This document shows positions 11,144-49,987 of a DNA stretch of 64,000 nucleotides, in pieces (the first letter of the stretch is position 1; each line of letters begins with the position of its first letter). The stretch is taken from the NCBI GenBank assembly GCA_027064135.1, contig JAMOQG010000019.1, positions 1 to 64,000 on the forward strand, in the 5' to 3' direction. Source of the DNA: Peptostreptococcaceae bacterium (GTDB lineage: Bacteria > Bacillota > Clostridia > Peptostreptococcales > Acidaminobacteraceae). The translations under genes and the position numbers were made by a program. The notes beneath the pieces were generated by a model. The model was not told the DNA's origin. It ran no database searches and saw only the letters and a program-made list of their open reading frames with translations.

Positions 11144-11170
11144 AAAGCGGCTTTATAGCTGCTTTTTTAT
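11144..11170 (+). terminator. Rho-independent terminator after hup
   Basis: AAAGCGGCTTTATAGCTGCTTTTTT. Confidence 0.8.
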
Positions 11171-11220
11171 TTCTTTAGTAGAGAACACTCGTGTCTTAAG
11201 ACATGAGATGAATTTATATT

Positions 11221-11277
11221 TAGATTGATTTCATTAATCGAAGAATTGTACAAGTGGTTTATATAGTACAGACAAAG
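11221..11277 (+). ncRNA. Putative two-hairpin RNA element, copy 1 (family not recognised)
   Basis: TTGATT/AATCGA and TGTAC/GTACA stems, loop GTGGTTTATA, 3' AGACAAAG; same layout as 19535-19592. Confidence 0.45.
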
Positions 11278-11361: not shown

Positions 11362-11610
11362 ATGGAAGATATGAGAATAGATAAATATTTAAAAATTACG
11401 CGATTAATTAAGAGAAGGACGATTGCAACTAAAGCATGTAAAGATGGGAATGTATTTATAAATGAAAAAGTTGCAAAACCCGGTACAAAAGTTTCAGTTG
11501 GTGATATAATTAGAATAGAGTTTGGCGAAAATGTTGTAACTGTAAAAGTAAATGCTATTAGTGGACATATTAAGAAAGAAGATGTTTCTGAATTAATTGA
11601 TTATATATAA
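11362..11610 (+). CDS. rqcP: S4-domain RNA-binding protein (RqcP/YabO-like)
   Basis: MRIDKYLKITRLIKRRTIATKACKDGNVFINEKVAKPGTKV S4 domain; synteny with divIC/S1 protein. Confidence 0.88.
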   Translation: MEDMRIDKYLKITRLIKRRTIATKACKDGNVFINEKVAKPGTKVSVGDIIRIEFGENVVTVKVNAISGHIKKEDVSELIDYI

Positions 11611-19503: not shown

Positions 19504-19531
19504 AATCCTCTATTTATAGAGGATTTTTTTG
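19504..19531 (+). terminator. Rho-independent terminator after ftsH
   Basis: ATCCTCTATTTATAGAGGATTTTTTT. Confidence 0.85.
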
Positions 19532-19534
19532 ATG

Positions 19535-19592
19535 TAGATTGATTATATTAAATCAAAGAATTACAATGAGAGGTTTATAATTGTAGACAAAG
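19535..19592 (+). ncRNA. Putative two-hairpin RNA element, copy 2
   Basis: TTGATT/AATCAA and TACAAT/ATTGTA stems, loop GAGAGGTTTATA, 3' AGACAAAG; compensatory differences to copy 1. Confidence 0.45.
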
Positions 19593-19617: not shown

Positions 19618-20004
19618 ATGGAAAATTATAATTTGAAAATTGGAATGAAAAACGAATCAAGCTTTATAGTTGAAGAAAAGCATACTGCAGCTCAATATGG
19701 GAGTGGGACACTTTATGTTTTCGCAACACCGGCAATGATTGGTCTTATAGAAAATTCGGCACTTAATTGTGTAGATATGCTAATTGGCGAAAAATATTCA
19801 ACTGTAGGAATTCATTTAGATGTAAAACATATTGCAGCAACTAAAATGGGACAAAAAGTTAGAGCTGTTTCTGAACTTATTGAAATTGATGGTAAAAAAC
19901 TTTTATTTAAAGTTGAAGCTTTTGATGAGGAAAAGAAAATTGGTGAAGGATATCATTCAAGATATATAATTGATATTGAAAAGTTTATGAATAAACTTAA
20001 TTAA
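19618..20004 (+). CDS. Thioesterase, hotdog fold (FlK-like)
   Basis: ATPAMIGLIENSALNCVDMLIGEKYSTVGIHLDVKHIAATKMGQKVRAVSELIEIDGKKLLFKVEAFDE. Confidence 0.85.
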   Translation: MENYNLKIGMKNESSFIVEEKHTAAQYGSGTLYVFATPAMIGLIENSALNCVDMLIGEKYSTVGIHLDVKHIAATKMGQKVRAVSELIEIDGKKLLFKVEAFDEEKKIGEGYHSRYIIDIEKFMNKLN

Positions 20005-20015
20005 AGGATGTGTTT

Positions 20016-20324
20016 ATGGAAATTCTATTAACGGGTTATGCAATGCTTCCAAAAGGAATTACAGCTACAAAATTATATGGGGTTGTTGGCATTGCTGTTT
20101 TAGTTGAAAAAGAAACAAGTGTGATTTTAGATTTTGAATGTTCACTTGCAACAAATTTAGCAAAAGAATATGTAAAAAAATTAGTTGTTGGATCTAAATT
20201 AAAAGAATATGAAAAAATTGAAGAAAGAATTATAAATCATTATCATGGAGCAGCGCAAAAAGCAATCGCTACAGCAATTAAAAGTTGCAGTGCCCAATAT
20301 TATCAGCTATTAAATAATAAGTAA
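20016..20324 (+). CDS. DUF3870-like protein
   Basis: MEILLTGYAMLPKGITATKLYGVVGIAVLVEKETSVILDFECSLATNLAKEYV; ATG at 20016 has the better-spaced RBS. Confidence 0.7.
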   Translation: MEILLTGYAMLPKGITATKLYGVVGIAVLVEKETSVILDFECSLATNLAKEYVKKLVVGSKLKEYEKIEERIINHYHGAAQKAIATAIKSCSAQYYQLLNNK

Positions 20325-26789: not shown

Positions 26790-27191
26790 ATGAAAGCATT
26801 GAAAATTGATCATATTGGTATTGCAGTAAAAGACTTAGAAGAGACAATAAGTTTTTATAGAGATGTACTTGGATTAGAAGTTGGCGGAACAGAAGTTGTA
26901 GAAGAACAAAAAGTAAAAGTTGCTTTTTTACCAGTTGGTGATAGTGAAATCGAATTATTAGAATCAACAACTGAAGATGGACCAATTGCAAGATTTATTG
27001 AAAAAAATGGTGAAGGATTACAACATGTTGCTTTTAAAGTAGAGAATATTAAAGAAGCGATTGAGTATATGGAGTCAAAGGGTATGAGAATGATTGATAA
27101 AGAACCTAGATATGGAGCAGGTGGGGCAAAAATCGCATTTGTTCATCCTAAAAGTTCTCATAGAGTACTTGTAGAGTTAACAGAAAGATAA
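26790..27191 (+). CDS. mce: Methylmalonyl-CoA epimerase
   Basis: IDHIGIAVKDLEETISFYRDVLGLEVGGTEVVEEQKVKVAFLPVGDSEIELLE. Confidence 0.95.
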   Translation: MKALKIDHIGIAVKDLEETISFYRDVLGLEVGGTEVVEEQKVKVAFLPVGDSEIELLESTTEDGPIARFIEKNGEGLQHVAFKVENIKEAIEYMESKGMRMIDKEPRYGAGGAKIAFVHPKSSHRVLVELTER

Positions 27192-46155: not shown

Positions 46156-47883
46156 ATGAAAAAGATGTTAGTTATGTTAATGGTATTTATTATGTTATTT
46201 AGTATGGTTGCTTGTTCATCAAGTAATAATGATACTGAAGAAAAAGGCGGTAAGATTGGATTGGTATTATCTACATTGAATAATCCTTTCTTTGTAGATT
46301 TAAAAACAGGTGCTGAAGAAAAAGCTAAAGAATTAGGATATGAATTAGTTGTATTAGATTCAGAAAATGATCCAGCTAAAGAATTAGCAAATGTAGAAGA
46401 TTTAATTACACAAGGTGTTGATTTAATATTGATTAACCCTGCTGATTCTGATGCTGTAGGAAATGCAGTGAAGCAAGCAAATGATAGTAGTATACCAGTT
46501 ATTACATTAGATAGAGGTGCTAATAAAGGAGAAGTTGTTACTCATATTGCATCAGATAATGTTGCAGGAGGAGTACTTGCTGGAGAATTTATTAGTGAAA
46601 AATTAAATGGTAAAGGAAAAGTTGTTGAATTAGAAGGTATTGCAGGAACTTCTGCAGCAAGAGATAGAGGTAAAGGCTTTAATAATGCAATTGCATCTAC
46701 AGAAATTGAAGTAGTTGCAAGACAAACTGCAAATTTCGATAGGACTGAAGGCTTAAATGTAATGGAAAATATTTTACAGGCACAAGAAAATATTGACGCA
46801 GTATTTGCTCACAATGATGAAATGGCATTAGGCGCTATGGAAGCAATTAAATCATCTGGAAGAGATATTCTAGTAGTGGGTTTCGATGCTACAGGAGATG
46901 CTATTAAATCAATAGAAGCAGGAGAAATGGCTGCAACAGTTGCTCAACAGCCAAAATTAATTGGTTCGCTTGGCGTAGAAAATGCAGATAAAGTTCTTAA
47001 TGGTGAAGAAATTGAAGTGTTTATACCAGTAGCGCTTAGATTAATAAGCAATGATAAAGAAGTAAAAAAAGAAGAACCAAAGAAAATAGGATTAGTACTT
47101 TCAACATTAAATAATCCATTCTTTGTAGATTTGAAAACAGGTGCAGAAGAAAAAGCTAAAGAATTAGGATTTGAATTAGTTGTACTTGATTCAGAAAATG
47201 ATTCAGCTAAAGAATTAGCAAATGTAGAAGATTTAGTTGTTCAAGGTGTTGATTTAATATTAATTAATCCAACAGATTCTGATGCTGTAGGAAATGCAGT
47301 TAAAGAAGCAAATGGCAAGAGTATTCCAGTTATTACATTAGACAGAGCAGCAAATAAAGGTGAAGTTGTTACTCATATTGCATCAGATAATGTTGCTGGA
47401 GGAGTACTTGCTGGAGAATATATTAATGAAAAATTAGGTTCAAAAGGAAATGTAGTAGAATTAGAAGGAATCGCTGGAACTTCAGCTGCAAGAGATAGAG
47501 GACAAGGATTTAATGATGCAATTGCATCTACAGAAATTGAAGTGGTTTCAAGACAAACTGCAAATTTCGATAGGACTGAAGGCTTAAACGTAATGGAAAA
47601 TATTTTACAGGCACAAGAAAACATTGACGCAGTATTTGCTCACAATGATGAAATGGCATTGGGTGCTATGGAAGCAATTAAATCATCTGGAAGAGATATA
47701 ATGGTGGTTGGGTTTGATGCTACAGGAGATGCTATTAAATCAATAGAAGCAGGAGAAATGGCAGCAACAGTTGCTCAACAACCAAAATTAATTGGCTCAC
47801 TTGGTGTAGAAAACGCTAAAAAAGTTTTAGATGGTGAAACTGTTGATGCATTCATTCCGGTTGAATTAATGTTAGTTAAATAA
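46156..47883 (+). CDS. rbsB: Ribose ABC transporter substrate-binding lipoprotein with two tandem RbsB domains
   Basis: One lipobox (SMVACSSS) then two copies of [29 protein letters not shown]...[18 protein letters not shown]. Confidence 0.95.
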
Positions 47884-48956: not shown

Positions 48957-49854
48957 AAAAAATGGTTTTGCAAAATCAGAGAAATTAAAAGGTGTTTTGT
49001 TTGTTTTTTCAACTTATTTATTTTGGGGTGTACAACCAATTTTTTGGAAACAGCTTAAACATATCGATTCATTTCAATTAATTGCTCATAGAATATTTTG
49101 GTCCTTTTTATTTTTTTTAATTATTTTAAAATATCAAAATAAGATTTCTGAAATAAAAGAAGTTATGAAAGATAAGAAAAAATTCGCGCTTACAGTTTTT
49201 GCTGGATATCTTATTAGTACAAATTGGCTTATATATATTTATGCAATTAATTCAAATAGAATACTTGAAACGAGTTTAGGATATTATATTAATCCAATAA
49301 TAAGTGTAATTTTAGGAATGATTTTTTTAAAAGAAAAATTTAATAAAAACCAGATTTTATCATTTGCATTTGCTTGTTTAGGAGTATTAGTAATTATTGT
49401 AAAATTCAGATCATTGCCTTGGATTGCAATGGTTTTACCAGTTATGTTTGGAGTGTATGGTTTAATAAAAAAACTTACGAGTTTAGATCCAGTAGTAAGT
49501 ATGGCAATTGAAACGATGGCAATAATGCCAATTGGACTTGGCTATTTACTATTTACTGAAACAACTAATAAAGGTCATCTTTTTTCGGATGGACCAATAA
49601 TCACTTTTTATTTAATTATGACTGGTGTTGTTACATCGCTTCCATTATGGTGGTTTGCAATAGGTGCAAGAAAAATAAAACTTTCATCAATCGGATTTAT
49701 ACAATTTATTTCACCGACGCTTTCCCTTATAATAGGAGTTTTAATGTATAATGAAGTATTTGAGAAAACACAGATGATTAGTTTTGGATTAATAGGTATA
49801 GGAATAATCATTTACATTAATACAATATATAAAGAGAGTAGAAGTAGTTTATAA
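48949..49854 (+). CDS. rarD: EamA-family transporter RarD
   Basis: GVLFVFSTYLFWGVQPIFWKQLKHIDSFQLIAHRIFWSFLF; ETSLGYYINPIISVILG. Confidence 0.92.
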   Translation: MLEKNGFAKSEKLKGVLFVFSTYLFWGVQPIFWKQLKHIDSFQLIAHRIFWSFLFFLIILKYQNKISEIKEVMKDKKKFALTVFAGYLISTNWLIYIYAINSNRILETSLGYYINPIISVILGMIFLKEKFNKNQILSFAFACLGVLVIIVKFRSLPWIAMVLPVMFGVYGLIKKLTSLDPVVSMAIETMAIMPIGLGYLLFTETTNKGHLFSDGPIITFYLIMTGVVTSLPLWWFAIGARKIKLSSIGFIQFISPTLSLIIGVLMYNEVFEKTQMISFGLIGIGIIIYINTIYKESRSSL

Positions 49855-49987
49855 TAAACAAGGAAGTATTATGAAATGTTAAAGAAACTCAAATGATTAT
49901 TTTAGATTAGTAGGTATAGGAATAATCATTTACATTAATACAATATATAAAGAGAATAAAAGTTTATAATAAACAGGGGGCATTATG
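49771..49987 (+). repeat. Tandem direct duplication of the rarD 3' end and following intergenic
   Basis: TAGGTATAGGAATAATCATTTACATTAATACAATATATAAAGAGA...GTTTATAATAAACA occurs at about 49793-49860 and 49911-49975. Confidence 0.9.

Follow-up and report, generated by a model that had tools for sequence, protein, structure and literature searches.

Two short intergenic sequences, at 11221-11277 and 19535-19592 of the 64,000-nt stretch of DNA analyzed here (the 'window'), are 3'-truncated or remnant members of a modular repeat, designated R-M-C-R'. The family is apparently undescribed: a genus-restricted, non-coding interspersed repeat of uncultured Clostridia, seen so far in two species. The first-pass annotation had read the pair as a conserved RNA structure, and the family as a whole gives no sign of one. 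We consider it likely that both window copies have lost the 3' part of a repeat that is not only modular and confined to one genus, but also mobile-like and locally tandem. The feature is real but fairly ordinary, and its interest lies in the repeat family it adds to these bacteria and in the way a pair of such fragments can mislead.

The window copies and their family

Both window copies lie on the forward strand, and each is composed of two modules. In copy 1, module R (TAGATTGATTtcattAATCGAAGAATTGTACA) occupies positions 11221-11252 and module M (AGTGGTTTATATAGTACAGACAAAG) positions 11253-11277; in copy 2, R (TAGATTGATTatattaAATCAAAGAATTACAATG) occupies 19535-19568 and M (AGAGGTTTATAATTGTAGACAAAG) 19569-19592. 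Neither has the C module of full copies, and it is for this reason that we regard them as truncated or remnant. The two share the conserved elements AGACAAAG and GGTTTATA, and the strict pattern GGTTTATA-N(0-14)-AGACAAAG occurs in this genome in the two window copies and nowhere else. Their resemblance is beyond chance. A hidden Markov model (HMM) trained on 17 other copies, neither of those in the window among them, gives as its two best matches in the window copy 1 (11221-11276, E 4.5e-7) and copy 2 (19533-19589, E 1.8e-6). The next match is weak (27013-27045, E 0.043); when the window is reversed, nothing scores better than E 1.8. The two copies are present as first described, and belong to one family.

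Full elements consist of R, M and C, followed by a second, locus-specific R (R'), in an AT-rich unit of ~105-125 nt. The modules read TAGATTGATTnn..AATCAAAGAATTAnAAC (R), AAGTGGCTTATAAAnnnAGACAAA (M) and TAGACCTAGCGAAAAAAGCCGAAGGATTTTGGCGA (C); R' is frequent after C, and is usually a partial copy of R. With a mean column identity of 0.77, as against 0.63 for R, the C core is the better conserved of the two, and it is identical between one copy in one species (C68) and one in the other (C133). This hints at sequence-specific constraint, and a sequence-specific role for C, in transposition or otherwise, is therefore conceivable. C is lacking from one further copy, C102, as well as from those in the window. 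Several copies of C contain the in-frame peptide DLAKKAEGFWR, but stops and frame breaks in other copies, read by eye, speak against a coding sequence.

Copy counts rest on searches with models. A two-copy covariance model (R1), run over 61 genomes, does recover further homologues: its best additional matches are in this genome and its congener, and include a run of matches spaced about 120 nt apart. Those R1 matches beyond the genus that were inspected bore no resemblance to the family. Later models comprised a 12-copy sequence model and a 19-copy R-M model. The R2 and R3 searches place the family at 12 loci in this genome and at seven in the congener, Clostridiaceae bacterium HSG29, with the best full copies scoring E 1e-16 to 6e-27. 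Searches farther afield define its limits. The exact core pattern occurs in HSG29 alone among the 84,980 species of the GTDB collection (from which the window genome's own records may be absent), and has no match in IMG/VR. The R2 profile, run over 148 relatives, finds nothing convincing outside the genus (best match, E 7.5e-4); an R2 match in one such genome, G032, resembles coding sequence. Phage and plasmid collections hold no match to the family. Rfam covariance models, applied at gathering and at relaxed thresholds, match nothing relevant in the window or in full copies elsewhere; the first-pass annotation had not recognized the family either.

Behavior of the loci and their genomic setting

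The family is locally repetitive. On one contig of this genome (G000:C8, 12612-13080, minus strand), four near-identical units of ~120 nt stand in a row, with a chimeric fifth after them; the sister species has a different arrangement at the orthologous locus. R and R' at one locus share a mean of 88% identity, as against 66% between loci, and at C145 they are identical throughout (33/33). At L1-L10, this genome has R-C-R where the sister has a single R-like sequence.

Other loci differ between the species by the presence or absence of a whole block. The selD-selA spacer contains a block of 180 nt in the sister and is empty in this genome; the C139 locus likewise contains 175 nt in the sister and none here, the junction having been read by eye because the automatic alignment had misplaced the gap. 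Behind the 5S rRNA, a block of 130 nt occurs in just one of the two species, and this genome has its own copy elsewhere in the same spacer. Each of the three sites is bordered on both sides by repeats resembling TTTTAT or TTTTTAT; these could be target-site duplications, but the DNA there is T-rich. The reciprocal arrangement in the 5S spacer leads us to infer insertion, although without an outgroup a deletion between T-rich repeats would look the same. Some copies are evidently old, since two loci (C8/C57 and C135/C15) are common to both species.

A simple scheme would accommodate these differences. The element would arrive as a block of ~130-180 nt, by insertion rather than by deletion of a pre-existing copy, preferring T-rich DNA behind intrinsic terminators. 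The direct repeats, R, may then drive expansion and contraction, yielding tandem arrays, single units, or isolated remnants of R or R-M, perhaps including those in the window. Dispersal would probably depend on a putative transposase acting in trans, and rqcP or the FlK operon would be affected, if at all, only incidentally.

A more specific possibility, which we hold at appreciably lower probability, is that this is a novel, tiny, non-autonomous mobile element of ~150-190 nt, bounded by terminal direct repeats of ~35 nt, aimed at the T-tracts of terminators, and leaving solo repeats behind after recombination. Its terminal repeats, identical within a locus and different between loci, would resemble LTRs or represent a target duplication of great length. 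By eye, TGTGGC and GGCGACA (reverse complement TGTCGCC) match weakly at the ends of the cassette bounded by R; terminal inverted repeats are weak at best.

An IS605-like family, with about 20 copies here and three in the sister, has its right end inside R at two loci, L145 (G000:C2) and L143 (G000:C18), apparently at the TTGAT of R. Specificity of this element for R was considered and rejected: its ~20 right ends mostly precede unrelated DNA, and only the two precede R.

Copies of the repeat tend to lie behind terminators. Of 17 positions checked, 9 directly follow a same-strand intrinsic terminator; among random window positions the share is 0.8%. Copy 2 occupies such a typical site, directly 3' of the ftsH terminator (19504-19530, forward strand); the terminator of the HU gene (11144-11173, forward strand) lies about 50 nt 5' of copy 1. 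The genes that the copies adjoin are unrelated. Copy 1 precedes a gene for an S4-domain protein (rqcP-like; 11362-11610, forward strand), which is context rather than part of the element, and copy 2 precedes a gene for a FlK-type thioesterase (19618-20004, forward strand). Queries with rqcP/HU and ftsH found no match in the sister assembly, which is 86% complete.

Could the repeat, mobile or co-opted, regulate the genes behind it? The proposal would be that the promoter-like TTTATAAT in M drives the downstream gene, and the layout at copy 2 is suggestive: the interval from the ftsH terminator to the FlK start consists of copy 2 (which takes up 19533-19592 of that gap) and 26 nt more. There is precedent, too, in that BOX modules and BrickBuilt elements are reported to affect neighboring genes or to supply promoters for them (PMC3049150, PMC4596501). 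Promoter-like matches, which would bear on a sigma-70 promoter in M, are no commoner than in shuffled sequences, however (2 vs 1.3, and 1 vs 1.7), and no recognizable -35 element fits the TATAAT of M. We consider this unlikely.

Some minor features may be added. An imperfect palindrome without a T-run, CTCGTGTCTTAAGACATGAG, lies at 11189-11209, after the HU terminator and before copy 1. The FlK-type thioesterase gene is accompanied by a DUF3870 gene (19618-20324 together), and then by genes for a membrane protein and a CoA-transferase-like protein. In G001, an R-like start at C66 10323-10400 (L040), behind a gene end, leads into a strong GGAACG/CGTTCC hairpin; its flanks resemble those of G000:C62, the site of a full copy.

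RNA structure in the pair and in the family

The first-pass annotation was drawn from copies 1 and 2, and as a description of them it holds in most respects. Copy 1 can form a first hairpin from TTGATT (11225-11230) and AATCGA (11236-11241) around the loop TCATT, and a second stem from TGTAC (11247-11251) and GTACA (11266-11270), after which comes GACAAAG (11271-11277). Copy 2 has TTGATT and AATCAA around a 6-nt loop, and then TACAAT (19562-19567) and ATTGTA (19580-19585), with AGACAAAG at 19585-19592. The layout in both is as proposed except for the first loop, which is 5-6 nt long rather than a single nucleotide. The second stem does change in a compensating manner between the two copies, but this does not extend to the family.

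These compensating stems, and the retention of AGACAAAG and GGTTTATA in both copies, are what commend a structured cis-regulatory RNA, with a pair of hairpins ahead of rqcP and of the FlK operon that would respond to a signal or serve as a protein-binding site. RNAalifold, however, predicts not one pair in a consensus of 12 full-length copies, nor in one of 19 R-M copies. Copies 1 and 2 fold with energies no better than those of their own shuffles (z +0.11 and -0.54). In hairpin A, no pair shows change on both sides, and 72.6% of cells are paired compared with 73.7% in shuffles. Nor do arms pair better with their partners from the same copy than with those swapped in from other copies, whether in A (p=0.31), B (p=0.45) or C (p=0.33); for helix B without the window copies, p is 0.83. 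The one result in favor is modest and concerns a single register of helix B, in which 53.5% of cells are paired and the covariation score, 0.173, is reached by 5 of 500 shuffles. No covariation is seen in the register deduced from copy 1, and since helix B was scored in two registers and arms were swapped in three modules, the 5/500 is one among several tests. Helix B is strong only in copies 1 and 2 and in one other, at G000:C62; this, and the lack of any excess in arm pairing, make the compensating change a feature of the pair rather than of the family.

The wider family thus gives no sign of a preserved RNA shape. Further homologues exist, but apart from that weak signal they do not covary—an outcome named beforehand as counting against a conserved structure—and so that interpretation is not upheld. 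The setting of the copies, beside unrelated genes and behind terminators, also tells against it, as does the sister species, in which the 132 nt of sequence that the contig provides upstream of the FlK ortholog contain no R-M. The structured-RNA reading appears to be largely refuted by the family alignment, and we regard it as improbable. A 'covarying RNA motif' known from two copies can thus turn out to consist of two related fragments of a repeat, and its apparent covariation does not survive assembly of the family. Least probable of all, to the point of being barely credible, is a family of small non-coding RNA genes with C as its functional core, multiplied by tandem duplication: C is the most conserved part, tandem units recur and many copies lie behind a terminator, but C lacks family-wide pairing (p=0.33) and is missing from C102 and the window copies, and full copies have no Rfam match.

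Comparison with known repeats, and other features of the window

By kind, R-M-C-R' is a STAR-like, or VNTR-type, interspersed repeat: it is intergenic, repeated within loci, locus-specific in sequence and variable in copy number. STAR elements of Staphylococcus are short intergenic direct repeats with a recurring spacer sequence. They have a 14-bp GC-rich core, T(G/A/T)TGTTG(G/T)GGCCC(C/A), that is repeated about every 50 nt; sequences are distinct to each locus and near-identical within it, the loci expand and contract, and their positions differ between species (PMC3532100). In behavior these are the nearest to the repeat described here, which likewise comprises intergenic direct repeats of locus-specific sequence and variable unit number at positions that can differ between species. 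They differ in that the unit here is 105-125 nt long and AT-rich, whereas STAR has ~50-nt spacing and a GC-rich core; by inspection, the consensus of our copies contains no STAR core. How STAR-like repeats spread is still open for STAR itself (PMC3532100), and the presence/absence sites described above could offer a handle on the spread of STAR- and BOX-like repeats.

BOX elements of Streptococcus pneumoniae have the modular form boxA-boxB(n)-boxC, terminal inverted repeats similar to those of ISSpn2, and a predicted stem-loop (PMC3049150). Going by the published description, they resemble R-M-C-R' in being modular, intergenic, variable in the number of an internal module, and scattered within one lineage. 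ISSpn2-like ends and the stem-loop belong to BOX, whereas the repeated part of our family comprises C and the R on its flanks. BrickBuilt, of Porphyromonas gingivalis, is a minisatellite-MITE built of 23-nt repeats arranged head to tail, with small inverted repeats at its ends (PMC4596501). It too is similar as described, with about 19 intergenic copies, a limited host range, and tandem repeats within a mobile-looking unit, but here the units are ~110 nt and have no clear inverted ends.

The window contains other repeated or recognizable sequences. A 300-nt direct repeat, 88% identical, occurs at 46252-46551 and 47083-47382, 831 nt apart, and a 73-nt repeat, 89% identical, at 49782-49854 and 49900-49972, 118 nt apart. 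At the left edge of the window, positions 49-124 match a Group II intron domain (RF00029, 46 bits, E 7.3e-6).
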